From Bacteroidia bacterium (GTDB lineage: Bacteria; Bacteroidota; Bacteroidia; NS11-12g; UBA955), in assembly GCA_030158725.1 (NCBI GenBank), contig JAOASJ010000119.1, positions 74,439 through 107,708 of the forward strand: a DNA stretch of 33,270 nt, read 5' to 3'. Of the stretch, positions 560 to 30,000 are shown in pieces. The position numbers were made by a program, and so were the translations under genes. Each line of letters opens with the position of its first letter. Position 1 is the stretch's first letter. The notes under the pieces are model-generated. The model did no database searches. It worked only from the letters and a program-made list of their open reading frames with translations, and was not told where the DNA came from.

Positions 560-609
560 CATACAATAAGTTGTACGATTTTTGTTTATTTTTGTATTAT
601 AGTTTGTTA

Positions 610-10156: not shown

Positions 10157-10160
10157 ACCT

Positions 10161-11066
10161 ATGAAACATTTATTATATATACTATTTGTTGCGGTTCTCA
10201 TTTCATCTTGTGAGAAGACTGAAAAAGTAGATGATTTTCCAGTGCATAAAAGCCAGTTGGTGACAAATTGTTTTTTTAATGAAGACACTTGTTTTGTTTT
10301 CTTTTTGTCAAAAAGTCTGTCACCTATAGACAATGCCCCTTTTAAAAACATGAACAGTAGCAATGCATTTATACGTGTATTTGAAAATGGAATTTTGTTT
10401 GATTCCTTCAGATATGATGCGTCTTCAAAGAATTACCATGGAGATGAGAACAAACGTCCTAAAGTGGGCGCACTTTACAAATTTGAGTGTAGTTACCCTG
10501 GATTTCCTTTGGTTTATGCAGAAGACTATATTCCTTCAAAAGCAGTGGTAAAGAAACATTCCATTTATACAAATGTTACCCGCACATGGGAGAACACAGA
10601 CACTGCAGTTTATGGAATATATAATGTGAATTTAAAAGTTGAATTAGATCCGGTAAAAACAGGAAACTGTTTAATATTATCTTTTGAAGAAACCGATTCT
10701 ATATTAAGAGGATACTACTATTATTCTTCTTCACGAACGAAAATGAATTTAAAGGATTTAAATCCTGAGAATGAATATGTATATGCTGGTAATAAGTTAT
10801 TCATTTACAATGAAAAAGGAATCAAATCCTTGGCTCTTCAATGGGAAAATTACGGAGTTTTGTTCAAGAATAAAGTTACGGTAATACAAGATTTAAAACT
10901 TCAAACGTGCAGTAAAAGTACCTTTGAATATTTAAGACGCATGACTGTGCAAGGAGAAAACGCTGACGATCCATTTTCTGAGCCTACACCAATTAGCAAC
11001 AGCATTCAAAATGGATTTGGTGTATTCGGAGGGATTAATGAAATGAAGTATAGATTTCGATATTAA
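10161..11066 (+). CDS. DUF4249-family lipoprotein
   Basis: 301 residues from ATG 10161; an in-frame ATG at 10140 lies inside the receptor gene and lacks a better signal. MKHLLYILFVAVLISSC is a lipoprotein signal peptide with the lipobox cysteine at residue 17. The body is beta-rich: an early Ig-like segment (LVTNCFFNEDTCFVFFLSKS, ending in AFIRVFENG) followed by the Y-x-F-x-C-x-Y-P-G-F and YIPSKAVV strands typical of DUF4249. Members are thought to sit at the outer membrane beside a TonB-dependent receptor, possibly as an accessory or lid protein, but the function is unproven. It ends 18 bases from the convergent gatA. Confidence 0.82.
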   Translation: MKHLLYILFVAVLISSCEKTEKVDDFPVHKSQLVTNCFFNEDTCFVFFLSKSLSPIDNAPFKNMNSSNAFIRVFENGILFDSFRYDASSKNYHGDENKRPKVGALYKFECSYPGFPLVYAEDYIPSKAVVKKHSIYTNVTRTWENTDTAVYGIYNVNLKVELDPVKTGNCLILSFEETDSILRGYYYYSSSRTKMNLKDLNPENEYVYAGNKLFIYNEKGIKSLALQWENYGVLFKNKVTVIQDLKLQTCSKSTFEYLRRMTVQGENADDPFSEPTPISNSIQNGFGVFGGINEMKYRFRY

Positions 11067-13501: not shown

Positions 13502-15340
13502 TTAATGTCCTCCACTGGTGGTGGTGTCGTATTCAACGCCTTGCTTTTTCAATAATCCTTTGACTCTAAAGGCAAAGAAAGTTATGTAAGCAAAACACAA
13601 AACAGCTACCCAGTACGATTGGTGTATACCAATAATGTCAGCTAGTTTACCTTGGATTGGAGGTATTATACTTCCACCTAATATCATCATAACCAAGAAG
13701 GCAGCACCTTGGGTCGTGTATTTGCCTAAGCCAGCAACTGATAGGGTGAAAATTGAAGGCCACATGATTGAACAGAATAAACCGCCACTTAAGAAAGCGT
13801 AAACAGCAATTTGTCCTTTTGTAGAAACGCCTATTAGCATAGCCACGATGCTTAATATGCCAAAAACAAGTAGAGTTCTGGCAGGTTTTTCTTTACTGAT
13901 AAAAAATGCAATGATTTGAACAAAGACGCAAACAACATAAAAGTATAAAGGACTCATGTCTTTTTGAGCAAGCGTGTTTACGCCAATTACTACACCGAAA
14001 GCAATTAGAGGTACTACGATTAATAAGATTGATTTTAAGTTTTTTGAAGGGTTAAATACATTGATTGCACCAGCCCAACGCCCAATCATTAAACTGCCCC
14101 AATACATTGAAACAAATGGTGCAATTTGCGACGATTGGTATCCTCCAAATTCAGCCTGTTTAAGTAATTCACCTAAGTTAGATCCGATGGCTACCTCAAC
14201 ACCTACATATAAGAAAATTGCAAGCATACCTAGTACCAATTGAGGGTATTGCATAGCGCCCCAATTTTCCGGTTTTTTATTGGCTGAAAAATTAGCAAAT
14301 AATAAACCTAGTACAATAACAGCTAAGGCACCCAATAACCATTTCATACGGTATTCTTCAAGTGGTGCTTTAATGCTTTCTTTTTCTGCATTTAGTGCAG
14401 CTATATTAATATTAGCTAATTTTATTGAAGTATCTGCCAATGTTTGTGTAGCTCCAGGAAGCGTAATATCATTCTTGCCAATAGTTGGCGCAAGTAGTTC
14501 TATTACTCTTTCTTCATTTGCTATTTTCTTTTCTATGCTTTCGATTGCTGCAACTTCAGCGCTTTTATAACTGCTGAAAACAGGGGTGAAGGTTATAATC
14601 AATAAGCCGGTAATAACTAATAGTGTGTATAAAGCTTTCTTTGCAGGTTCTTGTTTTTCGGCACTAATACCAGCTGGTACTTTCTTTGAAAAATGGAATA
14701 GTGCAGCGGCAGCTATAAACAAGGCGCAAACACCAGAATATAGAATTAAAACTTTCCCAAGATCTAAGGCTGCAATTTGCTCATCGGAAATATCTGCTGC
14801 ACTGCCAAATAAAGCTAAACCTAATACCAAAGGTCCAATTGTTGTTCCAAATGAGTTAATACTTCCACCTAAGTTAATTCTATTACTACCAGTGGCAGGA
14901 TCTCCAAGCATAATTGCAAAAGGATTGGCTGCTGTTTGTTGAAGACTAAAGCCTAAAGCCACTATGAATAAGCCGAATAACATACCTGAAAATGTGTTTG
15001 CATTTACAGCAATGATCATGGCTATTGCTCCAAGAGCACTAAATAAAAGACCGTAAACAATACTTTTTTTGTATCCCCATTTAGCCACTAGATCTTTTCC
15101 ACCCAAGGCCCCATAGGCGAATAATATTAAGGCACCTATGTAATAAGCGAGATAAAAAGCGAAGTCAATCAATTGGCTTTGGAACTGGTCTAAATGAAAG
15201 TAATGTTTGCAAAAAGGTATAAAGACACTGTTTCCTGCGGCTATGAAACCCCAAAAGAAAAACACCGTGATAAGGGTGCTTAGTGCTCCATAATTGGTGG
15301 CTTTTGGGTCATTTGATTCGTTGGTTTTTAATTCTTCCAT
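13502..15340 (-). CDS. FucP-type sugar/H+ symporter (MFS) with a periplasmic insert
   Basis: 612 residues from the ATG at 15340 ([10 protein letters not shown]). An in-frame ATG at 15355 is possible, but the probable promoter leaves only about five bases before it. Twelve MFS helices are visible, with [11 protein letters not shown] in TM1, [24 protein letters not shown] in TM5 and GVEVAIGSN in the first helix of the second half, all typical of the fucose/glucose/galactose:H+ symporter (FHS) family. Family members are about 400-440 residues. Here an extra helix (about 237-255), a charged stretch (256-332) and another helix (333-350) are inserted between the two halves. It should import a monosaccharide, probably glucose given the adjacent beta-glucan enzymes. 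The gene is divergent from the secreted protein gene at 15836. Confidence 0.88.
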
Positions 15341-15365
15341 ATTGATTTTGATCATCTAGTGGCTA

Positions 15366-15373
15366 CAAATATA
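15366..15373 (-). promoter_or_regulatory. -7 element of the sugar symporter gene
   Basis: TATATTTG on the minus strand matches TAnnTTTG exactly. I see no TTTG at the expected upstream distance. The start site would be near 15360, leaving about 20 nt before the ATG at 15340, which supports that start over the one at 15355. Confidence 0.45.
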
Positions 15374-15785
15374 TTTTTTTAAATGAATTAATAGCGATTT
15401 TATAAGGAATTGATATTAAAACTTTAGTAAGGTTTGTTTTTTACTGTTTTATAAATAGCAAATACTCTGAACTTTCCTTTCTGTTTTTTATATATCAAGT
15501 TGCAAAAGAAATATTATCAGAATTCGAGTGAAATTTTAAATAAATAATATCAAAACATATTTGTTTAATGATTGCGATTTATTTCTTAAACGGGATTTTG
15601 TGGCACTGTTTTGTTCTGGTTTTATATTGTATGGTGCTGATAATTAATATTTTGAAACGGGGCAGCTCATTTTAATTAATTATTTTTTCTAATATGAATT
15701 TGTTTAATTAAATCAAGTCTGAAAATTTATTAAAAAATTAATGTTCTCACAATCTGCAAACAATACCAATATCAGACAAATTAAG
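15374..15785. other. AT-rich divergent intergenic region without a gene
   Basis: This stretch separates the symporter from the glucan-binding protein gene. I find no open frame with coding character and no RNA gene. It is very rich in A and T with scattered short TTAATTAA-like palindromes. Its length (about 400 bases) leaves room for an upstream activator site, but no convincing long dyad or direct repeat stands out by eye. Confidence 0.5.
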
Positions 15786-15816
15786 TTTGAGACTTATGTT
15801 TTTTTCTTTATCGTTG
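15786..15816 (+). promoter_or_regulatory. Promoter of the T9SS-secreted glucan-locus protein
   Basis: TTTG (15786-15789), exactly 19 bases, then TATCGTTG (15809-15816), which matches TAnnTTTG in all but one position. Transcription would begin near 15823 with a 13-nt leader. An alternative -7, TAAGTTTG at 15782-15789, has no upstream TTTG. Confidence 0.5.
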
Positions 15817-15835
15817 TAGCTTAATTAAATTTATC

Positions 15836-17170
15836 ATGAATAAAAAATATACTTTTTTTAGTTTACTAAAAGGGATGACTTTTTCAGCTTTATTGCTGTC
15901 ATCTACTTTTGTTTTTGGCCAAAATGCGCCAATTGATTTTGAAAGTGCTGGTAAAGGCGCTAATTGGACTTGGACAACGTTCGAGAATGTTGGTAATTCT
16001 CCAATAGAAATGGTTGCAAATCCAAGTGCTACAGGTATCAACACTTCAGCAACTGTTGCTAAGTTTACTACTTTAATCGGCGGTCAACCTTGGGCTGGTT
16101 GCGAAAGTAAACATGGTGCTGACATCGGAACATTCACTTTGTCATCTAGCAATGCTATTGTTAAAATCATGGTTTACAAATCTGTAATCAGTGATGTAGC
16201 AATTAAATTTGCGACTTCTTCTAATAGTTCAAGTGGTGAGATTAAAGTTCCAAATACTAAAATCAACGAATGGGAAGAATTAACTTTTGACTTCTCTTCA
16301 AAAATTGCAGAAACCAATGATCAAATTATTGTTTTCCCTGATTTCCAAACAAGAACTACAGATAACGTATGTTATTTTGACAACATTACTTTCTCTTCAG
16401 GTGGAACTACCTTAGCTGAGCCTACTGTTGCTGCTCCAACACCAACAAAATTAGCTGCTAATGTTATTTCAATGTTTAGTAATGCTTACACCAATGTAAC
16501 TGTTGATACTTGGAGAACTGGTTGGTCAATGGCTACCTTAACAGACATGCAAGTTGCAGGTAACGATGTTAAAAAATACTCAGCTTTGGATTTCGCTGGC
16601 GTAGAAGCTGTTGGTGCTAACACTATAAATGCATCTACTATGGATCATTTCAATATTGATGTTTGGACTCCAAATGCAACTACTTTTAAAATTAAATTGG
16701 TTGACTTTGGTGCTAATGGTACCTACCAAGGTGGTGATGATGTTGAACATGAATTGTCATTCACTCCAACCAAAGAAACTTGGAATACTTTAAGCATCAA
16801 AATGTCTGACTTTACAGGTTTAACCACTACATCTCACATTGCTCAAATAATTTTTGTAGGTGTGCCAACTGGAACAAGTGTTGTATACATCGATAACGTA
16901 TACTTCTCAAAAGCAGCTGCAAGTGTTTCTAGCTTTAACAGTGCTTCAGTTAAAATGTATCCTAACCCAAGTGTTGGTTCATTCACAATTGAATCAGTAA
17001 AGAACATTGAAAACGTTACTATCATGAATTCAATTGGTCAAGTTGTTTTAAGTTCTGAAGTGAACAGCAATTCTTTCAACTTTAACAACAGCAACCTTGC
17101 TAAAGGTGTTTATGTTGTTCAAGTAACAATCGAAGGTGTTGTTTCTACTGCAAAATTGATCGTAGAATAA
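15836..17170 (+). CDS. T9SS type A secreted protein with two probable carbohydrate-binding beta-sandwich domains
   Basis: 444 residues. The signal peptide ends at about 28 (STFVFGQ). Two beta-sandwich modules follow: one at about 30-190 (IDFESAGKGANWTWTTFEN, ending VCYFDNITF) and one at about 205-360 (DTWRTGW, FNIDVWTPNATTFKIKLVDFG, ending VVYIDNVYF). Each ends in the Y-x-D-N-x-x-F strand seen in many galactose-binding-like and CBM folds. The last 75 residues (MYPNPSVGSFTIES, IMNSIGQVV, LAKGVYVVQV, AKLIVE) are a type A T9SS sorting domain. No catalytic motif is visible, so it probably binds rather than cuts polysaccharide at the surface. Codons look strongly biased (frequent GCT, GGT, ACT), suggesting high expression. 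A strong hairpin separates it from the enzyme operon. Confidence 0.8.
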   Translation: MNKKYTFFSLLKGMTFSALLLSSTFVFGQNAPIDFESAGKGANWTWTTFENVGNSPIEMVANPSATGINTSATVAKFTTLIGGQPWAGCESKHGADIGTFTLSSSNAIVKIMVYKSVISDVAIKFATSSNSSSGEIKVPNTKINEWEELTFDFSSKIAETNDQIIVFPDFQTRTTDNVCYFDNITFSSGGTTLAEPTVAAPTPTKLAANVISMFSNAYTNVTVDTWRTGWSMATLTDMQVAGNDVKKYSALDFAGVEAVGANTINASTMDHFNIDVWTPNATTFKIKLVDFGANGTYQGGDDVEHELSFTPTKETWNTLSIKMSDFTGLTTTSHIAQIIFVGVPTGTSVVYIDNVYFSKAAASVSSFNSASVKMYPNPSVGSFTIESVKNIENVTIMNSIGQVVLSSEVNSNSFNFNNSNLAKGVYVVQVTIEGVVSTAKLIVE

Positions 17171-17192
17171 TCACGATTAAAATATAATATTT

Positions 17193-17227
17193 AAGTAAAA
17201 GCACTTTTTTAAAAAGTGCTTTTACTT
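17193..17227 (+). terminator. Strong hairpin between the binding-protein gene and the glycosidase operon
   Basis: A perfect 17-base inverted repeat (17193-17209 and 17211-17227) built around AAAAGCACTTT / AAAGTGCTTTT, starting 22 bases after the stop. T-rich sequence lies within the right arm. It can act as an intrinsic terminator in either direction or as a 3' stabilising structure that lets the upstream gene be expressed far more than the downstream operon. Confidence 0.75.
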
Positions 17228-17237
17228 TGTAATTTCA

Positions 17238-17280
17238 TTGGGAATTAATATTCAAAAAAAAAATTAAAAGAAGTTCCCAA
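17238..17280 (+). promoter_or_regulatory. Inverted repeat in the leader of the glucan operon
   Basis: TTGGGAA (17238-17244) and TTCCCAA (17274-17280) are exact complements separated by 29 bases that include a ten-A run. The dyad ends 24 bases before the start codon at 17305. It could be an operator or an RNA fold affecting translation. No TAnnTTTG promoter is visible in this gap. Confidence 0.35.
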
Positions 17281-17304
17281 ACATTGATAAAATCAAGACC
17301 TAAA

Positions 17305-18654
17305 ATGAAACACAAATTGAAATTAACTTTATTAGCGTTTGTAATACTATATTCTGGTATTCAAATTTCTGCACAAACTAAAGTTCAGACCACCGATTCA
17401 GGGTATGTACTGATCCGTAACGGCAGTCCTTATTATGTAAAGGGAGTCGGCGGAGAAGTTAATTTTGATAAAATGATTGCTATTGGCGCTAATTCATTTA
17501 GAACATGGGGAGTTGAAAATGCTCAAAAAGTTCTTGATGAAGCTCAGAAAAGAGGCTTAACCGTTATGTTGGGTTTGTGGTTACAGCATGAAAGACATGG
17601 CTTTGATTACAACAACAAAGAAAAAGTTAAATCTCAATTAGAATATTTTAAAAACGTAATCAAACAATTCAAAGACCATCCTGCTCTACTTATGTGGGGT
17701 GTTGGAAATGAACTTGATTTAGATTACACCAACCCGAATTGCTGGAATGCAGTGCAAGACATTGCTCAGTTTATTCATCAAATAGATCCTAATCACCCAA
17801 CCAGCACAGTAACCGCTGGTTTGGATTCTTTAGAAGTTCAATTTATAAAATCGAGGTGCCCAGATATAGATATCTATTCTATAAATACATACGGAAACAT
17901 AGCTGGAGTGCCACAAAATATCGCGAGATATGGTTGGAATGGCCCTTATATGATTACCGAGTGGGGACCTAATGGTCATTGGGAATCACCTCAAACAAAA
18001 TGGGGCGTTTCAATAGAACAAACCAGCACAGAAAAGACAACATCATACCTTACCAGGTATAAAGAATATATAGCACCCAACAAAAATTATTGCTTAGGCT
18101 CATATGCATTTTTATGGGGTGCAAAACAAGAGTATACGGAAACATGGTATGGCTTGTTTTCAAAAGACAATCTTCCAACTGAACCAATTGATGCCTTAGA
18201 GTTTGTATTCACTGGTAACTGGCCTAAAATGCCTGCACCTTCATTAATGGCAATGCGAGTAGATGGCAAAGATGCATTTTCAAGTATAAATTTAAAGGGT
18301 GGTGAGAAATACCCAGCATCGATAAAAATAGTTCTGCCTGATTCTATGCTTAATGCCAATGTAAATTTCGTTTGGCGCATTTTTGAAGAAAGTACAGATA
18401 AAAAATCAGGAGGCGATGTAGAAGCTGAAGCAACAGAATTAACAGGCTTAATTATTAAGGGTGGGAACAAATCTGATATTTTGTTTAGAGCACCCTTGCA
18501 AGCAGGTTCTTATAGGATTTTTGTCACAGTAATACATAATGGAAAAGTTGCTTATGCAAATATTCCATTTAAAGTCCTTGCACGTGAGGCTGGTGAAAAG
18601 CAATCACGTTTTATACAGTTGAAATATACAGATATGAAAGAATTTGAAAAATGA
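17305..18654 (+). CDS. Secreted clan GH-A glycoside hydrolase (GH2-TIM-barrel/GH158-like), probable beta-glucanase
   Basis: 449 residues from ATG 17305, with a Sec signal peptide (LTLLAFVILYSGIQISAQ) and no lipobox. The TIM barrel shows VKGVGGEVNFDKMIAIGANSFRTWG, GLWLQHERHGFDYNN, LLMWGVGNELD with the probable acid/base E136, SINTYGN, and MITEWGPNGHWE with the probable nucleophile E219. Two glutamates at the ends of strands 4 and 7 define clan GH-A retaining enzymes. A beta domain of about 120 residues follows. Such proteins are often labelled 'glycoside hydrolase family 2 TIM barrel'; the size and catalytic spacing also fit GH158 endo-beta-1,3-glucanases, which I cannot decide by eye. It overlaps the next gene by ATGA, so translation is coupled. 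Confidence 0.8.
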   Translation: MKHKLKLTLLAFVILYSGIQISAQTKVQTTDSGYVLIRNGSPYYVKGVGGEVNFDKMIAIGANSFRTWGVENAQKVLDEAQKRGLTVMLGLWLQHERHGFDYNNKEKVKSQLEYFKNVIKQFKDHPALLMWGVGNELDLDYTNPNCWNAVQDIAQFIHQIDPNHPTSTVTAGLDSLEVQFIKSRCPDIDIYSINTYGNIAGVPQNIARYGWNGPYMITEWGPNGHWESPQTKWGVSIEQTSTEKTTSYLTRYKEYIAPNKNYCLGSYAFLWGAKQEYTETWYGLFSKDNLPTEPIDALEFVFTGNWPKMPAPSLMAMRVDGKDAFSSINLKGGEKYPASIKIVLPDSMLNANVNFVWRIFEESTDKKSGGDVEAEATELTGLIIKGGNKSDILFRAPLQAGSYRIFVTVIHNGKVAYANIPFKVLAREAGEKQSRFIQLKYTDMKEFEK

Positions 18655-20549
18655 AAGTAAAAATCAATAAAATATTAGGTGCTGGATTGGTTTTAGCTTT
18701 AACTGGTTTGATTGGAACTGCAAATGCCCAAAGCAACGATTTGTTGAATTCTAAATTTAAGGATTCAATGAACAAAGCATACCGCAGTGATGTGAACTTT
18801 AATTTTAATAAGCCACTAGATATTCTTGAGAATTTAGAAATTAGTGGATATTATCGATTCATTACCAACTATAGACATCTTAGTGAAACTTACAGCCATT
18901 TAGACGCAAATAGAAACAATATCTTTGTTGGAGATGATAGCCAAATTCCTCAACTGATGGTGAATTTGAAAGGCTATGCAAGCAGTAAAGTTATGTTTGG
19001 TACAGACTTGTTTCTATGGACGCCAATGACAGGTGCTGGTGAGAAAGAAAATGTTAAGGGATTAAATCTAGGGGTTAGTTTATACGGAATGTTCTCAACC
19101 AGTTTGGGGAATTTTACAGTGCGCACTGGTGGTATCAATTGGTACACTTTGTCGCCATTTACATTCCAAGCCAATAAGGGGTATAACCGATACAGTTTAT
19201 TTGAACGCAATCCATGGGATCCTAACACATCAAAAGTAGATTCAAGGTATTCTGATTTTTATGGCTCAGGAGCTATTAATCAAGACCAAAGATGGGGTAA
19301 CCAAGCGTTTCATGGCTTAATTGTTGAAGGTGCTCAATTACCACATAATTTTTCTTTTAGTGCAATGGTAGGTAAAACACAATTCGATGGTGGATTGTCA
19401 TCTATTCCCAATACATCTGCTGGAGGAAGATTGAGTAAGTCATATTCAGGGTCAAACGGATTGCTGTCATTAAATACATTTAACAACGACAGTTATTTAG
19501 ATTCTTTAGGCAAACAGAAGGCAGGATTTAACATGGTGACGGGTGAAATTAAACATCAATTTAAACGTGTTAAATTATTTTCGGAGATAGGTATTGGAAG
19601 ACGTTATGCAGGAACCACTACTTCAAAATGGGGTGAAGCAATTTCTGTCAAAATTTCTGGAGATATTTTGAAAAAGGTTGCAACTGAATTTCATTTTTAT
19701 AGAATAAGTCCAAATGTATTTAACAACAGTTCTGTTTTTATAAATTCATCGATTCAGCAAACCGTTCAAACCAATGCAACCCAAACGCAACCAGTATTGA
19801 TTCCTGTGTCTAGTGCTTTATTGCCTATTGGTCAACTTTCAAACAACAGACAAGGTATTGAATTGAATGCCCAGCTAGATTTTGGTCGTTTGAAAAACTC
19901 AATTGGTTATTCAAATGCAATGGAATTGGATAAATTGTCACCAAAGATTACTTATACCCATGCATTTAATAATTTAGCATTGTCTAGATTTTGGAGATGG
20001 GATTTCCCAAGTGGGGTTGGGCCGTATAAAAACTTAAATAAAATTTACCGTTCAGTATTTGAAACAATGTATGTTACTGAATTGGATGCAGACGGCAAGC
20101 CATTGTATAGAAAGTACTTTAACACGATCGAATTAAATTCTAAATACAAAACAAAGTTGCTCAATAGAGAATTGTATCTGTTTTATTTAGGGTCAATTAA
20201 TTCTGTGCAAAATTTTGCAAGCCCATTTGTTGTGTTTAGTGAAAGGGCTTTAATGCGCGCATACTTCCATCAAGTTGAATCTTATTTGAAAATAAACCAT
20301 AGATTGGTGTGGACCAATTATGCAAGTTTTGAACGCATTATTGGAAATTATCAAACCGAGGTAAATTCGGATACACGTAGACCCAAGAATCAAAAGGGTT
20401 TAAGTTTAGCAACTGGATTTGATATACAATTAAGTAAGGGTGTCGGATTATACATAAGAGAGCGTTATATGCAATACAAAGACATGAGTTTTGCCTTAGA
20501 TAGGTATAAAGGATTTGAAACGACCATTGAATTAAAAGCTTTCTTTTAG
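18651..20549 (+). CDS. Outer-membrane beta-barrel protein of the glucan operon (first of two)
   Basis: 632 residues with a signal peptide (ILGAGLVLALTGLIGTANAQ). The rest alternates polar and aromatic residues in 10-12-residue strands (LEISGYYRFITNYRH, GTDLFLWTP, FSFSAMVGKTQFDG, IELNAQLDFGRLKNSIGYS) and ends in phenylalanine, so an outer-membrane barrel of porin type is likely. There is no TonB box, no plug domain and no CarboxypepD-like domain, so it is not SusC. I do not recognise a named family. A large W/Y-rich early part (about 95-230) could hold loops or a plug-like constriction. Its place directly after the glycosidase, with four-base overlap, suggests oligosaccharide passage or surface binding. 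Confidence 0.7.
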   Translation: MKVKINKILGAGLVLALTGLIGTANAQSNDLLNSKFKDSMNKAYRSDVNFNFNKPLDILENLEISGYYRFITNYRHLSETYSHLDANRNNIFVGDDSQIPQLMVNLKGYASSKVMFGTDLFLWTPMTGAGEKENVKGLNLGVSLYGMFSTSLGNFTVRTGGINWYTLSPFTFQANKGYNRYSLFERNPWDPNTSKVDSRYSDFYGSGAINQDQRWGNQAFHGLIVEGAQLPHNFSFSAMVGKTQFDGGLSSIPNTSAGGRLSKSYSGSNGLLSLNTFNNDSYLDSLGKQKAGFNMVTGEIKHQFKRVKLFSEIGIGRRYAGTTTSKWGEAISVKISGDILKKVATEFHFYRISPNVFNNSSVFINSSIQQTVQTNATQTQPVLIPVSSALLPIGQLSNNRQGIELNAQLDFGRLKNSIGYSNAMELDKLSPKITYTHAFNNLALSRFWRWDFPSGVGPYKNLNKIYRSVFETMYVTELDADGKPLYRKYFNTIELNSKYKTKLLNRELYLFYLGSINSVQNFASPFVVFSERALMRAYFHQVESYLKINHRLVWTNYASFERIIGNYQTEVNSDTRRPKNQKGLSLATGFDIQLSKGVGLYIRERYMQYKDMSFALDRYKGFETTIELKAFF

Positions 20550-20605
20550 GAAGTATATAAGAAGAGAAAAAAATATAGACATTGTCAATATAATTAAAAA
20601 CGAAA

Positions 20606-22339
20606 GTGAACTTAAATAGAAAATATAAAAAATCTGGATTAAAACTAGGCATATTGATTGCCATAGGATTGACCGTATTTAATGTAAATGCACAGAAGGA
20701 CCGCAAAGTAAGTTTTGTTGGTGGTGCGCGTTCATTAATGAACAGCAATTCGTTAATTGTAAACGATACAATTGCTGATACAAGCACTGTGAAACGCAAA
20801 AACGGAGGTTATGCACTGCTAGACCTTGGTGTGAACATTAAACCAAATAAAAACACCGAGATTATGGGAATGTTCCGCATAAGAAATGAGTATGGCGGAT
20901 TTTGGGGCTCAGGTGTAAGTTTTGACGTAAGACAATTATGGATTAAAGGTGTAGTTGCTAATGCACTTCGTTATCAATTGGGTGATTTGAATTTAAAACA
21001 AACCCAATTTACATTATACAACCACCACTCTGACCAATTGGATTCACTTCCTAGTATTTTCAATTTGCAAAAAAACATTGTTTCTTATGAAAGATTCTAC
21101 ATGGGTAATAACAGTTGGAGAATGCAAGGAGCTAGTGTTGATTTTGGATTTACATTCTCTAAATATTTAAAGGAAGTTAATGTCAATGCCTTCTTAACAA
21201 GATTGAATGCTACTGACTTTGCAAATATCAACGACCGTTTGATGAGGGCCTTAACTCTACAAATAGTTCAAAGTAAAAATTTTTATTTAGCCTACAACAA
21301 CAACACAGTATTTGATGTAAAAGGAACCGTAAAGAACGATAACCTTTTTAAGAATTCTGTCAATACTGTAGACTTTAAATACTATCAAAAAATTGGAAAA
21401 GAGAATCTTTTGATAGCTGGAGAACTTGGTCAAAGCAATTACCAATATTCTGCAGATACTTTAGCTCCAAAACTAAACGATTACTTTATGCATTTTTATG
21501 CACAAATGAAAGTTTCGAATTTTAATGCAACTCTTGGATTTTTAAGTGTAGGACCAGATTTTAGAAGCATAGGTTCTCAAAGTAAAGATGTCAATTACAA
21601 TGCACAAACTGTTTTTTATAACCGTTATACCAATGCACAAGTTCAAAGACCAGTTGCTTTAATTGATTTAATTGGCAACGAAAATATTTACAACAGAACT
21701 ATCAGCAATTCATTAATGACGCCAAGTCAAATATACAATACCATTTCTCCATTTGGAATGGCCACATTTAATAGACAAGGGGCTTATGTTAGGGTTCAAT
21801 ATAAGACCAAACAAAAAATTGAATTGAATGCTGAATACCAAAGTTTAAAAGAAATAAGAGGTCAGGGATCAAATTCGCTAAGAGAGTTTTCTCAAACTAA
21901 GGTATATGCTTATTTGCCTCTTCATGAAATATTAGGACTAAAAAGACATTTGAGTATTCAAGCTTCAAATAAAATGCAAACGGCAAAAAGAAACAGCCAA
22001 GAAACCATTGAAAATGTGGATTTGAAAATGAATCAAATGAGTGTGGGACTTAAGTGGGAATTTAGTGATGGCTTTGAATTGTTAGGAGGTTTGGTAAATC
22101 AGACCAATAAAGGAGTAGATTTTATAGCCGATAGAAATTCATACTCAGAAGTTATTTATTTCCATCAAAACAATTTGAATCTAAGTCAGCAAATAAAGGC
22201 AGTTGGATTGCGTTATAATTTTAGTCCGAAAGTTTATTTAGCCATACTTTATCAGCAAAGCGCTTATAAAGATCAAACAAAAACAAATGCGAATTTTAAC
22301 ATGAATCAATTAGGAGTTATTTACAGTATTACACTATAA
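20606..22339 (+). CDS. Outer-membrane beta-barrel protein of the glucan operon (second of two), GTG start
   Basis: 577 residues. The only start that keeps the signal peptide (LKLGILIAIGLTVFNVNAQ) is GTG 20606, 56 bases after the preceding stop. Barrel-like strands are regular (TEIMGMFRIRNEYGGFWGSG, VSFDVRQLWIKGVV, LRYQLGDLNLKQT, AVGLRYNFSPKVYLAILYQ) and the protein ends in ITL. The segment R-I-R-N-E-Y-G ... RYQLGD resembles early strands of alginate-export-type porins only in style. No plug, TonB box or SusC motif is seen. It is not closely similar to the preceding barrel protein, so the two are not a simple duplication. Function is unknown; a glycan porin or scaffold is inferred from context. 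Confidence 0.7.
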   Translation: MNLNRKYKKSGLKLGILIAIGLTVFNVNAQKDRKVSFVGGARSLMNSNSLIVNDTIADTSTVKRKNGGYALLDLGVNIKPNKNTEIMGMFRIRNEYGGFWGSGVSFDVRQLWIKGVVANALRYQLGDLNLKQTQFTLYNHHSDQLDSLPSIFNLQKNIVSYERFYMGNNSWRMQGASVDFGFTFSKYLKEVNVNAFLTRLNATDFANINDRLMRALTLQIVQSKNFYLAYNNNTVFDVKGTVKNDNLFKNSVNTVDFKYYQKIGKENLLIAGELGQSNYQYSADTLAPKLNDYFMHFYAQMKVSNFNATLGFLSVGPDFRSIGSQSKDVNYNAQTVFYNRYTNAQVQRPVALIDLIGNENIYNRTISNSLMTPSQIYNTISPFGMATFNRQGAYVRVQYKTKQKIELNAEYQSLKEIRGQGSNSLREFSQTKVYAYLPLHEILGLKRHLSIQASNKMQTAKRNSQETIENVDLKMNQMSVGLKWEFSDGFELLGGLVNQTNKGVDFIADRNSYSEVIYFHQNNLNLSQQIKAVGLRYNFSPKVYLAILYQQSAYKDQTKTNANFNMNQLGVIYSITL

Positions 22340-22340
22340 T

Positions 22341-23342
22341 ATGAAACAAAAAATTATCTTACTTTCTTTTTTGGTATTAAGCCTAGCAGCTTGCAGAAAA
22401 GACAACAAAATAGATGGTCCAAGTATTGCTGAAATCTACAGCAATTTTAAATTATTGGATCCGTTCAAAGCAAGTAAAGATTCTGTAGATTTTAAAACCT
22501 CAGAAACAGTTTTCTTTTCTGCTTCTTTTAATAAAATAGTTACTTGGGAAATTAGCATTGAAGGACAAACGTCTAAAGCGAAAAAAATCATAAGCGGACA
22601 AAGCAGAATAATTGCTTTGAACAATGCACTATGGAATGGTTCTACGACAAACTTCCCAATGTTTAAAGCAGAGAAGTGCATAGCGACATTAAAAATCGCT
22701 GATGTTGCTGATTCGTTTATGGTGAATGTTAATGTTAAAAACCCAAAAGTTAATGATGGTTTTATCATAGCTGATTTTGAAACAGGACTGAAAACATCTT
22801 GGACGAAGTTCTTTCAATCTGGCGCCAATATGGATTGCAAAGTAAAAACAGATAACTTGGCTCCAGAAGGAGGTAGTTATTTAAATATGGCAGGGACTGT
22901 GAATTGGGACTATCTAATTGGTTTGGTCGATTTTCCAGCTTCAGCATACAATTCAGCTGTTACTTTTCCGCTTAATACAAATCCAGATGCAGTTTATTTT
23001 AATTGTTTAATTTATGGTACAAGTAGCGCGAATCCATCTTTGGTCTTATTCCAATTTAAAGAAGATGAAAACAGTGATGGAACTTTCTCGGCTAGCAATG
23101 AAGATGAATACGACTATCAAATAACAGTAGATTGGGAGGGATGGAAATTAATTTCAATTAAATATTCTGACATCGTTACTTTGGTTAATGGAAATCCTGC
23201 AACTCCAAAAGGTAACGGTCTCCATAATCCAAATAAATTAAGTAAAATATCCATGTTGCACTTGGCAAATCCCAACAATGGTTTTGCAAGTACTAAATTG
23301 GATTATTTGATGTTTTCAAACAACAAACCACTTGAACCGTGA
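22341..23342 (+). CDS. Lipoprotein with Ig-like and carbohydrate-binding-like domains
   Basis: 333 residues, starting one base after the preceding stop. MKQKIILLSFLVLSLAAC is a lipoprotein signal with the cysteine at residue 18. Residues about 30-135 look Ig-like (ETVFFSASFNKIVTWEISIEG, ATLKIADVADSFMVNVNVK). Residues about 140-330 form a beta-sandwich opening with FIIADFETGLKTSWTKFF and closing with a strand LDYLMFSNN, the arrangement of galactose-binding-like CBMs. It includes an acidic EDENSDGTF segment that could bind calcium. It is a candidate surface glycan-binding protein, filling the place SusE/SusF-type lipoproteins take in Sus loci, though not recognisably homologous. Confidence 0.72.
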   Translation: MKQKIILLSFLVLSLAACRKDNKIDGPSIAEIYSNFKLLDPFKASKDSVDFKTSETVFFSASFNKIVTWEISIEGQTSKAKKIISGQSRIIALNNALWNGSTTNFPMFKAEKCIATLKIADVADSFMVNVNVKNPKVNDGFIIADFETGLKTSWTKFFQSGANMDCKVKTDNLAPEGGSYLNMAGTVNWDYLIGLVDFPASAYNSAVTFPLNTNPDAVYFNCLIYGTSSANPSLVLFQFKEDENSDGTFSASNEDEYDYQITVDWEGWKLISIKYSDIVTLVNGNPATPKGNGLHNPNKLSKISMLHLANPNNGFASTKLDYLMFSNNKPLEP

Positions 23343-24004
23343 GTAAATATATTAAGTTCTGCTTTGGTCTCGCTTGTTTAGCTCTTTTGGGGGCTTGTAA
23401 CAGCTTTGTGCAAGTTCAGGATAGATCTTTGTACAACGAAGTAGCAATTGTCGATAGCAACGAAATTGATGGCTTTAAAGCCGTATACATTTTTAATAAT
23501 GATTTTGATAAAAGTGTTTGGGTTTCACCTGAAGTGCAATGTGTTCAATTAGCAACGGAAAAAGTAAATGTTTTTTCAGGCTCGGCAGGATTGAAAGTAA
23601 CTTGGGATAAAATTGCAGGCAATTGCAAATGGATAGGCATTGGATTTGGTTGGAACAATTGGATGTCAAAAGACATTTCGGACTTAAAAGACAATTCAGC
23701 TGTTCAAATGAAAGTTAAGTCAGCAAAAGGTTCATTTAAGAATTTGCCAGTTGCATTTGCCTTTGAAGATTATTCTGGCGTTCAATGCTATTATGGTTTT
23801 AATTATTCTTTAGCAGCCGGTGAATTTACCGATTCGACATGGACTACTGTTCTAATACCTTTATCAAAATTTCCATTTGAAGCTAGGGACTTTGATTTGG
23901 AAAGAGTGAAGCAATTTATAATTCAATTAGAAGGAGATGGCAATATATATTTGGATGAAATTAAATTTATTAAACTTGAAGATGAGAAAGTTATTCGTTC
24001 TTAG
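23339..24004 (+). CDS. Lipoprotein with a single carbohydrate-binding-like domain, GTG start
   Basis: 221 residues. The start is GTG 23339, overlapping the previous stop as GTGA; this keeps the lipoprotein signal (FCFGLACLALLGAC, cysteine at residue 20). The rest is one beta-sandwich (about 45-215): VYIFNNDFDKSVW, GLKVTWDKIAGNCKWIGIGFGWNNW, SAVQMKVKSAKG, PVAFAFEDYSG and a final GNIYLDEIKFIKL strand. This is the shape of CBM11-like or CIA30-like galactose-binding folds. Exposed W/Y residues would suit glucan binding. Its end overlaps the GH3 gene start by 23 bases, which implies translational coupling. Confidence 0.72.
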   Translation: MSKYIKFCFGLACLALLGACNSFVQVQDRSLYNEVAIVDSNEIDGFKAVYIFNNDFDKSVWVSPEVQCVQLATEKVNVFSGSAGLKVTWDKIAGNCKWIGIGFGWNNWMSKDISDLKDNSAVQMKVKSAKGSFKNLPVAFAFEDYSGVQCYYGFNYSLAAGEFTDSTWTTVLIPLSKFPFEARDFDLERVKQFIIQLEGDGNIYLDEIKFIKLEDEKVIRS

Positions 24005-26228
24005 TTTATTGGTTTCTTTACCTTGGGTATGTTTGTCCCAAAATTTCTTATCAAATAAACAAATTGACTCTATAATTTCTTTGATGAGTCCTGAAGAAAA
24101 AGCAGGACAAATGACACAAATAGATTTGGGTGTTATTGCTGAAGGTGGTATCTGTAATTTGGTGCAGCCGCAAGCTTTAAATTTAGACAAACTAAAAACA
24201 GCAATTCAGAAATACCATATTGGATCAATTTTAAATGTTGGTTGTGGAAGTGGTACCATCTCACTTGAGAGTTGGCACAAAATTATCAACACCATTTTCG
24301 AGCAAAACAAGAAGTATAGCCATTTAAATATTCCCATAATTTATGGTATTGATGCCATACATGGCGCCAATTATACAATGGGCGCAACGTTATTTCCACA
24401 ACAGATTGGACAAGCTGCAACTTGGAATCCAGGCCTTGTAAAAAAGATGTATCAAATTACAGCTTATGAAACAAGAGCAAGTGGTATACCTTGGAATTTT
24501 TCGCCAGTTTTAGATTTAGGCAGAATGCCACTATGGTCGCGCTTCTTTGAAACATTTGGTGAAGATGTTTATCTCGCAAAGCAAATGTCAAGAGTTGCCA
24601 TTCAAGGTATACAGAATAATGGAGTTAATGGTCCATATCAGGTTGCTTCTTGTATGAAACACTTCTTGGGTTATAGTATGCCTTTAAGTGGAAAAGACAG
24701 AACGCCTGCTTGGATTTCTGACCGTGAATTGAGGGAGTATTTTTTGCCAAGTTTTAGAGAAGCAATTAATCAAGGAGCTAAAACAGTTATGATTAATTCA
24801 GGTGAAATTAACGGAACACCTGTGCATGTAAACCATGATATTTTGACCACCTTGTTAAGGGATGAATTAGGCTTTAAAGGGGTTGCTGTAACAGATTGGG
24901 AAGATGTCTATAAATTGGTTAACATTCATAGAGTGGCAGCCACCAAAAAGGAAGCTGTGAAAATGGCTATAATGGCTGGGATAGATATGAGCATGACACC
25001 CAATGATTTTGAATTCACTGAGCTTTTGGTAGAATTAATTAAAGAAGGTTCTATTCCTATGTCGCGCATAGATGCTTCGGTTAGGAGGATATTGAATTTG
25101 AAAAATGAAATGGGCTTGTTTCAATTTAAGAAAATCTCTAAAGATTTATATCCTTTGTTTGGTTCAGCAGAGCATGCCCAGCAAAGTTATAACTTGGCTG
25201 TAGAGAGCATGACTTTGTTAAAGAATACAAACAATGCTTTACCTATAAATTCTTCGGCTGAAAAAGTATTGGTTTGCGGTCCAGCTGCCAACAGTTTAAA
25301 TTTATTAAATGGCGCGTGGACACACACATGGCAAGGGTTAGATGCAAGATTTAACACCAAAGGTAAACTAAGTGTGGTGGATGCTATGAAGCTTGTTAAT
25401 GCGAAGAATGTTACTTATGTCCAAGGATCTAGCATAGATAGTGTACTAGATATTGAAGCTTGTATTCAAGCAGCCAAAACGGTTGATAAAATAGTGGTTT
25501 GTTTGGGTGAAACACCTTGCACAGAATTGCCGGGAAATATTGATAATTTGGATTTAACCTTAGCTCAGAAAACTTTAGTAAAGCGTTTAAAAGAATTGAA
25601 TAAACCTATAGTTTTGGTGTGCTGCTTTAACCGACCAAGAATCATAAAAGATATTGCTGGACTAGCTGATGCAATCTTGTACGCATATTTGCCAGGCGAT
25701 GAGGGTGGACGGGCTATTTCGGATTGTTTGTTTGGGGTAAAAAACCCAAGTGGTAAATTGCCATTTACTTACCCATCAAATCAGAATGCATTGATTCATT
25801 ATGACCGCAAACAATCTGAAGATTTAGATGTTGATTTTTCAATGAATGCTTATAGACCACAATTTGATTTTGGATTCGGTTTGAGTTATACTCAATTTGA
25901 GTTTTCAGATTTAAGCGTTAGCAAGGATACTTTAAATGACTTTGATTCTATAGTAATAAAAGTTAATGTGAAGAATGTTGGAAGCAGGGCAGGGCAGGAA
26001 GTTGTGCAATTGTATTACAGTGATTTGTTCGCTAGCATAACGCCTTCGGTGAAAAAGCTAATGGCATTTTCGAAACTTGCTTTTGAGCCAAACGAAACAA
26101 AAACAGTTTATTTTTCAATACACAAAAGCGATTTGTCTTTTGTAAATAAGGAATTACAAGTAGTTACAGAATCAGGAGAATTCGACTTAATAATTAACAA
26201 TCAAAAAAAACGCATTTATGTCAATTAA
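23982..26228 (+). CDS. Glycoside hydrolase family 3 beta-glucosidase
   Basis: 748 residues from ATG 23982, chosen because MRKLFVLSLLVSLPWVCLSQ is a Sec signal peptide; an in-frame ATG at 23937 is buried in the preceding gene. Order: GH3 N-terminal barrel (about 25-375) with IIYGIDAIHGANY, CMKHFLGYSMP and KGVAVTDWEDVY, where D305 is the nucleophile; GH3 C-terminal domain (about 405-610) with GETPCTELPGNIDNLDL, where E515 is the likely acid/base; and a fibronectin III-like tail (about 645-748) with GFGLSYTQFEF. It should release glucose from beta-linked gluco-oligosaccharides, most likely in the periplasm. The linkage preference cannot be read. It overlaps the next gene by 11 bases. Confidence 0.94.
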   Translation: MRKLFVLSLLVSLPWVCLSQNFLSNKQIDSIISLMSPEEKAGQMTQIDLGVIAEGGICNLVQPQALNLDKLKTAIQKYHIGSILNVGCGSGTISLESWHKIINTIFEQNKKYSHLNIPIIYGIDAIHGANYTMGATLFPQQIGQAATWNPGLVKKMYQITAYETRASGIPWNFSPVLDLGRMPLWSRFFETFGEDVYLAKQMSRVAIQGIQNNGVNGPYQVASCMKHFLGYSMPLSGKDRTPAWISDRELREYFLPSFREAINQGAKTVMINSGEINGTPVHVNHDILTTLLRDELGFKGVAVTDWEDVYKLVNIHRVAATKKEAVKMAIMAGIDMSMTPNDFEFTELLVELIKEGSIPMSRIDASVRRILNLKNEMGLFQFKKISKDLYPLFGSAEHAQQSYNLAVESMTLLKNTNNALPINSSAEKVLVCGPAANSLNLLNGAWTHTWQGLDARFNTKGKLSVVDAMKLVNAKNVTYVQGSSIDSVLDIEACIQAAKTVDKIVVCLGETPCTELPGNIDNLDLTLAQKTLVKRLKELNKPIVLVCCFNRPRIIKDIAGLADAILYAYLPGDEGGRAISDCLFGVKNPSGKLPFTYPSNQNALIHYDRKQSEDLDVDFSMNAYRPQFDFGFGLSYTQFEFSDLSVSKDTLNDFDSIVIKVNVKNVGSRAGQEVVQLYYSDLFASITPSVKKLMAFSKLAFEPNETKTVYFSIHKSDLSFVNKELQVVTESGEFDLIINNQKKRIYVN

Positions 26229-27054
26229 ACATATAGGATTGGGAATGTACATATTGCTGTTATCCATAACAGCATGTAAGCAGTCACCACCACCTGAAAT
26301 TAAAATAGTAGAAAAAACAGGTCCAGTTTATTTTTCTGGATATTATTGGGATTATAAAGACAGACCAACCCCTGTTGGGCCAGGGCCAAATAGATTCTTA
26401 GGAACAAAAGAAAATGCTTTTGTTGACAGCTTAGGACGTTTGCATTTAAAGATTAGTAAGAAGAATGGCTTTTGGTATTGCAGTGAAATTATAAGTGTTA
26501 AAGAATTTAAATATGGCACTTATGTTTTTACTTGTGAAAGTGATATTCGTAATTTTGATGAACGCGTTGTCTTTGGCTTTTTTACATGGGATGACCATTC
26601 ATTCCAAACGCAAGGAAATAGTGAAATAGATGTTGAATTTTCAAAATGGAATGCAGCTGGAGATACTTCAATGGTTACCTTTAGTGCACAGCCCGTTTGG
26701 TTTAGCAATCCAGCGCCTTATCCTGAGCGCACACACAAACCTTTAATTGCCCAACGCTACATTAGTAAATCAATGACCTATATGATGAAATGGACGCCTG
26801 AAGCGGTTACTTGGGAAAGTTATGAGGGTGATACTTATCCTGGAGCAAATAAGACATCGTCATGGAAGTTTGATAACACCAATATTACAAGGACTAAAAT
26901 TGAAGGTTCACAAGTGTCTAATCCTATAGTCGTGCCTGCCCCAGGCGACTCGACCAATGTGCGTTTTAATTTCTGGTTGCTCAATGGAGCTGCACCAAAC
27001 AATGGCTTAGAACATGAGATAATTGTTAAAAATTTCTCTTTTCAACCCTTATAA
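26218..27054 (+). CDS. GH16-like lipoprotein (concanavalin-type beta-glucanase)
   Basis: 278 residues. A lipoprotein signal (LGMYILLLSITAC) puts the lipid on C20, so the enzyme is membrane-anchored, probably at the cell surface. The jelly-roll core includes GFWYCSEIISVKEFKYGTYVF and NSEIDVEFSKW. The catalytic GH16 signature ExDxE is complete (E136 nucleophile, D138, E140 acid/base) and is of the shorter, non-bulged form found in lichenases and xyloglucan transglycosylases; laminarinases usually have ExDxxE. It would cut internal bonds of a beta-glucan. It is the last gene of the operon and overlaps the convergent kinase gene by six bases. Confidence 0.82.
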   Translation: MSIKHIGLGMYILLLSITACKQSPPPEIKIVEKTGPVYFSGYYWDYKDRPTPVGPGPNRFLGTKENAFVDSLGRLHLKISKKNGFWYCSEIISVKEFKYGTYVFTCESDIRNFDERVVFGFFTWDDHSFQTQGNSEIDVEFSKWNAAGDTSMVTFSAQPVWFSNPAPYPERTHKPLIAQRYISKSMTYMMKWTPEAVTWESYEGDTYPGANKTSSWKFDNTNITRTKIEGSQVSNPIVVPAPGDSTNVRFNFWLLNGAAPNNGLEHEIIVKNFSFQPL

Positions 27055-30000
27055 TTCGTTCAGGTGATTCTTCTTTAAGTCATTTATACACAACTCTATG
27101 GTTGTGATAAATTCTTGAACCATAAACTTATTAGGGAATTCCAAACCTTGTTCTTTAATGAACGATTGCATTTTAGTGGCCATTGCAGAGACTGAATGTA
27201 ATTCAAAATGAGCCAAGCTAGGTTTTAACTTATGTAAGTGTTTTGAAAATGCAATTACATCATTGTTTTTATAGGCGTTTGATAAGTCTTCTAAGTAGTT
27301 AGGTGTTTCGCTAACAAATAGGGCCACCATTTTATCTACAAATTCTTTTTTGCCATTCGAAATTAAATTAAGATGGTTTAGGCTATACAATGGTTCATTC
27401 AAGTTTTCTTTACCTTCATTTTGGTTAAGAATGATATTCCTTTTGTGAATTGCATTAATAATTACTGCATTTAACGTTTTCTCATCAAATGGTTTTGTGA
27501 TGCAATGGCTAAAGCCCATACTTAAGTATTTTTTAGCGTCTCCTAAGAGCGCATTGGCTGTTAAAGCAATGATAGGCGTACCGTTGTAGTTATGAGAGCT
27601 AATAATCTCTTTACTGGCTTCTATTCCATCTTTTTCAGGCATTTGGATGTCCATTAAGATAATGTCATATTTGTTTTTCAAATAGGCTTCTACAACTTCA
27701 TTTCCATCATTAACAATGGTAACATCGCAACCCCATGCACTTAAAATGTGGTTGAGCATAAATCGGTTGATTTCTACATCTTCTGCGGCAAGAACTTTAA
27801 TGCCTTGAAGAGACTCGGTATTGGCCAAGTTTTCATCAATAATTTCTGATTCGTTTTCTAATTCGTCTGAACCTTGAGCAAAAGGTATTTGAATTGTGAA
27901 TGTGCTGCCTTTGCCATATTCGCTTTCAACTGTAATACTTCCACCTTGCATTTCAATAATAGATTGGCAGATGCTTAAGCCTAATCCAGTTCCACCGTAT
28001 AGACGGGCAATTTCTTTTCCACCTTGAGAATATGGATCAAAAATATGTTCAATTTGTTCTTCTTTTATGCCTATTCCAGTATCCGAAATAACAATTTCCA
28101 CCCAAGTTAAATCATTCTTTTTATGAGAGATTTTTACTTTTAATCCTATCTTCCCATTACTTGTAAATTTAATGGCATTTCCCAAAAGGTTATTTATAAC
28201 TTGGGTCAGTCTATGAGGGTCGCCACTAACTGTGAAGTTCACAGGTAATTCACTCATGAACTGAAGTTTCAAACCTTTCTCAGCTGCTCTATGGTGAAAG
28301 GTTTCTATTGATTTTTCAATCCTAGCTTCTAGGTCAAATGTTAAGCTTTCTAAAGAAATTTTACCTGAATTAATTTTTTCTAAATCTAAGATGTCATTAA
28401 CAATTGCAAGTAGATTGTCTGCCGAATCACTAATGATATTTAGATACTTTCTTTGGGTTTCATCAAGCTTGGTTTTTGCTAAAATTTTTGTCATGCCCAA
28501 GAATGCATTCATTGGCGTTCTTACTTCATGACTCATCTGTGCTAAGAACTCAGATTTTGCAATGGTAGATTTTTCAGCAATTTCTTTAGCTTTAAATGCA
28601 TTGTTTTCAAGTTGATTTCTCTCAATAGCATTTGATATACTGTTGGCAAAACTTTGTAACAAAGCAATTTCATCATCTGACCATTCTCTGTCGTTTGTGC
28701 AATCATCATAACCCACAAATCCCCAGAAGAAGTCTTTGTGCATTATAGGGATAATTAATATTGAACGAATTCCTTGAGCCTGCAATAAATCTCTAACCTC
28801 TTTGCTTTTTATCTCACTTACTATTGCTTTAAATGGTTCTTTTTTGTAAAGTGTGTCGAGAATATTGCCGAAAATGTTAATTGGTACATTTTGCAATTCT
28901 GGATTGTCGATTTGAGCTGGAGTGTCGTTGTTGGTCCATTCAAATCTTTGAGAAGTAAGGAAATCTAGTTGTTCAGGATCAAAACTATTTTCAAATAGAT
29001 AGGTACGGTCAACATTAACAGCATGGCCTATCCAAGGTAAAGATTTGTAGATGGCATTATAGAAATTGGGATTCGATAAAAGCTCATTTGTTGCCAAGGC
29101 AATAGCATTTAACATGCCTTGTTTGCGCAATAAAGCTTGTTCGAAGTTTCTTCTCATTGTTATGTCACGAGAACTTGCTATGATATACCCAGTGTCTGCA
29201 ACTTTAAGATATTTAACAGTTACTTCAACAGGGAAACTAAATCCAGTTTTTACATTTATGTTTTCACCTTCTACAATAATACTTTCATTTTTCTTCAGCG
29301 TCGAAACATGCTCTTCCCACACCAATTCATCGTTAAATAGCTGTTCAAAGTCTTGTACAAAATATTCGTTCACACGCTTAGCTTCTATACCCAGTCTTCT
29401 AATTGCTTCTGAATTTAGATAAAATAGACGGCCATCTTCTTGTGAAACCTGCATGGCATCATAAGAGTTGTCAATAATAAATTGAGATAAAGTTAGATTT
29501 CTATTGGCTTCCATTAAAGCCAATTCGTTCTTTTTGCTTTGGGTAATATTTAAACCATACCCGATAACCATAGTAACCTCGTTTTGAGCGTTCAAAACGG
29601 GATACATCATACGCATATGGTATTCTTTATTTCCGTCTGGGGTTACTATTTCTTCATACCAGGTATGAACATTTTTGCTTTCGAAAGCAGATGTGAAATG
29701 TTTCCGTCTTTCATCAGCAATAGAAATTGGCTTGTTTCTGTAAGTGCAATAGTCGTAATCGGTTTTGCCAATAATCCACTCTCGAATTTCTTTGTTTTTA
29801 ATTCCGTAAGGATTAACAAATAAGTAGCGGTGGTCTTTGTCGAAGGCTGCTATATCTGCTGGAATTTCATTCAGGATTTCTTCGTAAAACTCTTCTTGCT
29901 CTTTTATTTTAATTTGAGCCAATTCGTCTTTGGTGACATCGATGTAAACCCATAGATGTCCATCGTAAATGTCTTCTTTCCAAAGAGGAATATAGTCGCG

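Follow-up and report, generated by a model that had tools for sequence, protein, structure and literature searches.

A probable β-1,3-glucan utilisation locus of Bacteroidia with a conserved quartet of predicted barrels and glycan-binding lipoproteins and without SusC and SusD

Polysaccharide utilisation loci (PULs) of Bacteroidota are commonly recognised by their susCD gene pair. Here we describe a locus without this pair in a lake bacterium of the class Bacteroidia (GTDB lineage NS11-12g, UBA955; assembly GCA_030158725.1, 2.67 Mb in 131 contigs, 90% complete). The locus occupies positions 13502–27054 of a 33,270-nucleotide stretch of contig JAOASJ010000119.1, which was analysed as a whole and is called the window below. 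It consists of a divergent sugar symporter gene, a gene for a secreted protein with a type IX secretion system (T9SS) tail, and a run of seven closely packed genes on the + strand that encode, in this order, a glycoside hydrolase of family 158 (GH158), two predicted outer-membrane β-barrels (barrel 1 and barrel 2), two lipoproteins resembling surface glycan-binding proteins (SGBPs), a GH3 enzyme and a GH16-like lipoprotein. Adjacent genes of the run overlap or are spaced by no more than about 60 bases. All genes named in a first-pass annotation made from the letters of the window are present where it had placed them, and what it called a GH-A glycosidase can be specified as GH158.

Genes and predicted products of the locus

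The GH-A enzyme (17305–18654, + strand) is a GH158 endo-β-1,3-glucanase, as judged by matches to PDB entries 9oro, deposited as GH158 (E 3.2e-95), and 6pal, BuGH158 (E 1.4e-71). Its open reading frame (ORF) opens with a TTG at 17284, and the ATG at 17305 was chosen as the start. The structure of BuGH158 is described, with mention of 6PAL, in the available text of PMC7157763, which names a catalytic Asn-Glu acid/base pair and a Glu nucleophile. In the 6pal alignment, N135, E136 and E219 of the window enzyme correspond to N136, E137 and E220 of BuGH158 (numbering of that paper), and all 28 proteins aligned have these three residues. The GH3 β-glucosidase (23982–26228, + strand; the ORF opens at 23937 and 23982 is the chosen start) matches the Pfam family Glyco_hydro_3 with an E value of 4.2e-70 and carries a type I signal, so that it is probably periplasmic. 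Its NCBIfam matches are to a BglX-like family (425.6 bits) and to an exo-β-1,3/1,6-glucosidase family (422.8 bits), both under their cut-offs. The last gene of the run (26218–27054, + strand) encodes a GH16-like lipoprotein with the lipobox ITAC, which is probably located at the cell surface; its ExDxE motif (E136/D138/E140), comparable to the catalytic ExDx(x)E signature of GH16, is invariant in 23 aligned proteins and lichenases are its nearest PDB family (E 0.0036).

The two SGBP-like lipoproteins are encoded between the barrel and GH3 genes. Lipoprotein 1 (22341–23342, + strand) has the lipobox LAAC followed by RKDNK and a C-terminal CBM11-like region (Pfam CBM_11, E 0.003, below the cut-off), while the 221-residue lipoprotein 2 (23339–24004, + strand) consists of one domain resembling carbohydrate-binding module (CBM) family 30 and SGBP-B (CBM30, E 3.8e-5; SGBP_B_XBD, E 0.0024; both below the cut-off). 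Profile searches of the PDB with both proteins gave no significant match. Signal types were called with a crude heuristic, and in the named loci (the best 80, 79 of them distinct, of 181 confirmed barrel-1 places in a named species collection) it found lipoboxes in only 44/67 homologues of lipoprotein 1 (SGBP1), in 24/63 homologues of lipoprotein 2 (SGBP2) and in 17/32 GH16 homologues.

The symporter gene (13502–15355, − strand) is divergent from the other genes and encodes a GluP/FucP-type inner-membrane sugar symporter of the major facilitator superfamily; the best NCBIfam match is gluP (E 2.2e-56, 191.7 bits, just under the cut-off of 202.55), and fucP scores lower (E 1.2e-36). One relative (L171; L numbers denote loci and G numbers genomes) has an SSF symporter gene between the GH158 and barrel 1 genes, and two others (L173 and L175) have ORFs at this position that are comparable to it by size alone. 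The T9SS-sorted, CBM-like secreted protein (15836–17170, + strand; Por_Secre_tail, E 1.1e-11) likewise recurs, as T9SS-tailed proteins are encoded ahead of the barrel and SGBP genes in L183, L159 and L240. A strong hairpin with 16 pairs and a loop of 3 lies between the T9SS gene and the GH158 gene (17193–17227), so the T9SS protein gene may form a separate transcript.

Predicted barrel folds and the search for SusC and SusD

Barrel 1 (18651–20549, + strand) and barrel 2 (20606–22339, + strand) gave no Pfam match over the cut-off, no NCBIfam match and no PDB sequence match, and membership in a known family was rejected on these grounds. Among their aligned homologues, the generic OMP_b-brl family was matched by 3/46 barrel-1 and 2/52 barrel-2 proteins and DUF2490 by 2/52 barrel-2 proteins. 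In AlphaFold2 models, barrel 1 (pLDDT 80.3, pTM 0.77) is a plugless barrel of 22–24 strands after merging of broken ones, and barrel 2 (pLDDT 87.1, pTM 0.81) is a plugless barrel of 22 strands. Foldseek returned general matches, among them chitoporin, MOMP, OprD/Occ-type channels, AlgE, pilus ushers and the barrels of TonB receptors, none of which is a clear relative; among the 50 matches listed per barrel the TM score by query length stayed below 0.5, at a sequence identity of about 10%. The β-barrel fold is common to the window barrels and solved sugar- or substrate-specific porins (chitoporin, OprD/Occ, AlgE). Overlap by Foldseek/VIA with a chain of 5t3r (BT1762-1763), which we take to be the SusC of that pair, extended over 387 residues at 4.0 Å for barrel 1 and 388 residues at 4.3 Å for barrel 2. 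TonB receptors, however, contain a plug domain, whereas the models of the window barrels have none and the Pfam Plug domain was found in 0/46 barrel-1 and 0/52 barrel-2 aligned proteins (E 0.001). By profile and by model, the barrels are therefore not TonB receptors, and neither proved to be the SusC whose discovery the first-pass annotation had named as fatal to its claim. Its description of the two barrels as unrelated may need qualification, as they gave a weak hhalign match (probability 20%, E 0.001) and may be distantly related.

The absence of SusC and SusD from the operon, the central claim of that annotation, held up: Pfam Plug and SusD families were found in none of the ten proteins scanned, which comprised the locus and its downstream neighbour. 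Moreover, SusD_RagB and SusD-like_3 had no match anywhere in the 90% complete genome, and the same search gave matches in the genome of Bacteroides ihuae, which served as positive control. No SusD was found in any of the 11 genomes of the window's genus, its own included, of which 5 carry barrel 1. We extended the SusD_RagB test to 80 genomes, among them 58 of the 68 known barrel-bearing genomes (the ten left out are all less than 90% complete). No SusD was found in 23 of the 58, and 10 of the 22 genomes without barrel 1 have SusD. In family f70, the only family sampled of its order, barrel loci are present in all 10 genomes and at up to five places in one genome (seven match pieces, counted by place), and SusD was found in 0/8 genomes tested (G460, G499, G529, G556, G581, G606, G628 and G650).

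The genome has 16 TonB plug matches, 15 of them over the cut-off, and one of these receptors is encoded in the window, where a TonB-dependent receptor (TBDT) with a carboxypeptidase-like N-terminus is followed by a DUF4249 lipoprotein (7766–11066). A receptor of this kind, encoded elsewhere than in the operon, could import the glucan, with the barrels serving in adhesion, assembly or sensing; the distance between the TBDT/DUF4249 pair and the symporter gene is 2.4 kb, and one relative (L035, below) has a true SusCD pair ahead of its barrel operon. We consider this explanation quite improbable. The pair is outside the operon, behind a divergent amidase gene and frr, and in a set of 147 fetched barrel loci, including 17 repeats, the window TBDT was matched in one and the DUF4249 protein in none; it was rejected as an operon partner because it is not conserved near barrel loci and is unrelated by synteny. 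Lineages such as f70, which retain one or several barrel loci and gave no SusD match, also speak against import by a TonB receptor, although a TBDT acting without SusD would still be compatible with it.

Conservation of the quartet and its enzyme cargo

We refer to the gene order barrel 1-barrel 2-SGBP-SGBP as the quartet. Barrel 1 was found in 19/59 near genomes, 48/395 sampled Bacteroidia genomes and 6/392 genomes from across the phylum, the window's own genome being included each time; four of the last six belong to another class and have a local GC content of 60–69%. No barrel match was found in a plasmid collection. In the named loci, which derive in part from metagenome-assembled genomes (MAGs) labelled Fluviicola and Lishizhenia, and counting only loci whose contig extends far enough, barrel 2 directly follows barrel 1 in 76/76, SGBP1 comes next in 65/65 and SGBP2 after it in 57/58. 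The corresponding values for 49 further loci (17 of 67 repeat named ones and were removed; L162, where barrel 1 is masked by an overlapping reading frame, was left out) are 47/48, 43/44 and 29/41, several absent second lipoproteins being replaced by a different SGBP-like protein. Conserved co-occurrence across Bacteroidota, which the first-pass annotation had proposed as a check for the seven operon proteins, was thereby found for the quartet, and chance clustering was rejected because the gene order recurs across the phylum. Thus, the quartet is a real module and the constant core of these loci. On the fetched stretches, many of which lie on short contigs, GH158 is present in 67 of the named 80 and 28 of the 49 further loci, GH3 in 43 and 24, and GH16 in 33 and 14. 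One Bacteroidota-type barrel locus (L102) lies in a record titled as a Euryarchaeota archaeon MAG, which is probably mislabelled or contaminated.

The sole exception to the order of the two barrels is L035 of genome G032, where barrel 1 is divided between two ORFs, its second half coming first. In this locus (L035:9455-15941) SusC and SusD genes lie directly upstream in the same orientation and are followed by GH16, GH158 and the barrel genes, a constellation that may reflect either an ongoing replacement or an error of assembly. G032 is the one genome of the 58 barrel carriers with SusD within 10 kb of barrel 1 (in G053 the distance is 15 kb), which is a lower bound as many contigs are short.

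The locus might also be a canonical PUL in decay from which SusCD has been lost, and the same GH158, GH3 and GH16 families do occur with SusCD in Bacteroides. In particular, the 1,3GUL of Bacteroides uniformis (BACUNI_01484-01490), as presented in the available text of PMC7157763, has these three families and an SGBP in common with the window; it also has TBDT, SGBP-A (SusD) and hybrid two-component system (HTCS) genes, whereas the window operon is without all three, and BuGH158 has a type II signal whereas that of the window GH158 is seemingly type I. Decay is nevertheless extremely improbable as an explanation. The SusCD-free order is kept across the class and in another class with barrel frames open almost everywhere, and in the only SusCD-bearing relative seen it is the barrel that is split, whereas decay would be expected to affect SusCD.

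The quartet also occurs with other enzymes. In f70, the neighbours of barrel loci are a chitinase, a β-glucanase or a GH9 enzyme: in L198 the quartet is accompanied by genes for a GH18 chitinase (assigned by Pfam), a NagB-domain protein and an SSF symporter, and in four f70 genomes (L238-L241) it stands directly before a GH9 cellulase (identified by genome search, and by Pfam for L240). In a tree of 61 selected barrel-1 proteins, those linked to GH9 fall into a single group with full support. Another supported group has four members, of which three bear the label GH18 (L198 by Pfam, L201 and L202 from same-sized neighbours), and GH158-linked proteins dominate elsewhere. The enzyme label changes 9 times on this tree, compared with 18.3 times after shuffling. 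Barrel clades thus track the enzyme cargo, in part because of shared ancestry. Export of a polysaccharide through AlgE-like barrels, with hydrolases that edit the product, is very improbable on this evidence, since partner sets such as GH18-NagB-SSF are catabolic; moreover, no glycan synthase family was found among the window proteins scanned and two lipoproteins have CBM-like regions.

A precedent for the SusCD-free architecture exists, so it is not wholly new. The available text of PMC12016534 describes chu_1276-1280 of Cytophaga hutchinsonii as an atypical PUL that lacks SGBP-A, published for cellulose, and the GH9 assignment of CHU_1280 is given in the part of PMC6247017 available. That cluster and the window (here by prediction) are alike in having two adjacent outer-membrane proteins, two β-sandwich SGBP-like proteins and a hydrolase, with no SusC or SusD in the cluster. 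They differ in that GH9 directly follows the second SGBP in chu_1276-1280 whereas GH3 and GH16 do so in the window, and in that no SusD was found in the window's genus. The GH9 loci L238-L241 provide a link between the two systems: they share the gene order of chu_1276-1280, and their second SGBP (380–381 residues) retains the CHU_1279 aromatic residues W89 (Y here), F92, F180, Y253, F256 and F343 with shifts of 0–8 positions. With the tolerances applied, this pattern was seen in 4/4 GH9 loci, whereas the remaining 110 of 114 ORFs with 350–410 residues lack it, as do all 39 lipoprotein-labelled ORFs of that length and the second SGBP of the window. The four loci are closely related and were counted as a single case; no additional full-length SGBP2 of the GH9 type turned up in two more samples, of 378 and 395 genomes. 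The barrels of the GH9 loci match window-type profiles at E ≤ 4e-98 and ≤ 1e-113. Taken together, the gene order, the residue pattern and the profile matches indicate a very probable common ancestry of the window module and chu_1276-1280, a connection drawn via the GH9 loci and not via the CHU sequences themselves; the window barrels would accordingly be homologues of CHU_1276/1277.

What is new are the β-1,3-glucan and chitin versions, the breadth of the distribution and the combination, in one lineage, of several barrel loci with a negative search for SusD. The barrel/SGBP module extends well beyond the published Cytophaga cases in both substrate and taxonomy. In the mostly open literature that we searched for susCD-free PULs, GH158 and the quartet, and within the portions of text available, only the C. 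hutchinsonii cluster was found described, together with a passage on an NS4-clade MAG: for W_MB115, the accessible text of PMC10108472 reports a variant 1 laminarin PUL that, as the window locus, is without susCD, and includes GH158 in its list of laminarin enzymes.

A proposed route for glucan uptake

The locus is probably a utilisation operon for β-1,3-glucan of the laminarin type whose outer-membrane step is performed by a SusCD-free module. Set beside a SusCD-type PUL, it has neither a SusC-like transporter nor a SusD lipoprotein, and has linked carbohydrate-active enzymes (CAZymes) and additional glycan-binding proteins. The T9SS-secreted binding protein and the two SGBP-like lipoproteins would hold the glucan at the surface, where the GH16-like lipoprotein would make the first cuts. 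Oligosaccharides would then enter by way of the plugless barrel pair, which the two SGBPs probably cap or organise; periplasmic GH158 and GH3 would degrade them to glucose, and the GluP-like symporter would take the glucose in. The quartet may be an interchangeable import unit whose partner enzymes vary with the glycan, and it would be grouped with the atypical PULs of the chu_1276-1280 type. We infer uptake by the barrels from the cargo-linked clades, the inner-membrane symporters at the locus and the C. hutchinsonii literature. Of the two parts of the original proposal, the SusCD-free architecture was thus borne out by the searches, and outer-membrane uptake through the barrels is the part that stays conditional.

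A different role for the barrels would be that of general or glucose-type porins, with extracellular enzymes releasing glucose or very short sugars that diffuse in passively and no organised uptake of longer oligosaccharides. The nearest Foldseek matches, which include chitoporin, MOMP and OprD/Occ channels, are in line with this, as are the glucose-type symporter encoded at the locus and a title cited for chu_1276 in the accessible literature, which mentions glucose uptake. We nevertheless regard it as unlikely. The signal of the window GH158 is of type I by the heuristic, 59/63 of its homologues in the named loci have a type I (SPI) or SPI-like signal (two are called lipoproteins and two have none) and a T9SS tail was found in 0/28 aligned proteins, which suggests that this endo-enzyme acts in the periplasm, although roughly one in three SGBP1 lipoproteins escapes the heuristic. 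With such an endo-enzyme in the periplasm, the barrels would pass oligosaccharides in addition to glucose. In addition, the barrels are specific to the linked enzyme and are usually accompanied by two SGBPs.

Several observations weigh against uptake of the glucan by a SusCD-free module. SusD is also present in 35/58 barrel-bearing genomes, the SusCD pair ahead of the barrel genes in G032 argues against strict mutual exclusion of SusD and barrels, and one of the other plug-bearing receptors, including that with DUF4249 in the window, could be the importer. CHU_1279 has 375 residues and two domains, whereas the second SGBP of the window has a single domain. Finally, assignment of the last enzyme to GH16 is weak, with a Pfam GH16 profile match of E 0.013, below the cut-off.

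We also put forward, tentatively and as a possibility that we find rather doubtful, that the quartet provides Bacteroidota with a second general system for importing glycans across the outer membrane, one that operates alongside SusCD and does not depend on TonB. The plugless barrels of 22–24 strands would be gated by the two SGBP lipoproteins, chains of glucan, cellulose or chitin would thread in, and periplasmic endo-hydrolases (GH158, GH9 or GH18) would drive the process by cutting; in SusD-free lineages this would be the main system.

Should the quartet be the import unit, then many loci for laminarin, chitin and cellulose are being scored wrongly, and glycan uptake may also occur in genomes that lack SusD. 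Enzyme sets without susCD were filed as CAZyme clusters in the North Sea study PMC10108472, as far as its available text shows. According to the accessible part of PMC6247017 (2018), it is not known which proteins carry cellooligosaccharides across the membranes in C. hutchinsonii and Sporocytophaga, and a version of the module that acts on soluble laminarin would make this question testable outside crystalline cellulose.

The window contains further genes on both sides of the locus. A PKD-repeat protein of 1222 residues with a CHU_C type IX secretion domain is encoded at 571–4239. Downstream, a large hybrid histidine kinase with PAS, GAF, HisKA, REC and Hpt domains (27049–30471) is convergent with the GH16 gene, which it overlaps by 6 bases, and a LytTR response regulator lies behind it. 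Of 18 loci compared, some of them on contigs that end earlier, only L021 and L022, the two closest relatives, have the kinase at this position, which makes a role as regulator of the operon improbable. In other families, Reg_prop/Y_Y_Y regulators with C-terminal GerE-like matches (L183:2902-5730 and L181:12037-14958) are encoded near barrel loci and divergently from them, and these proteins are candidate regulators of the module.

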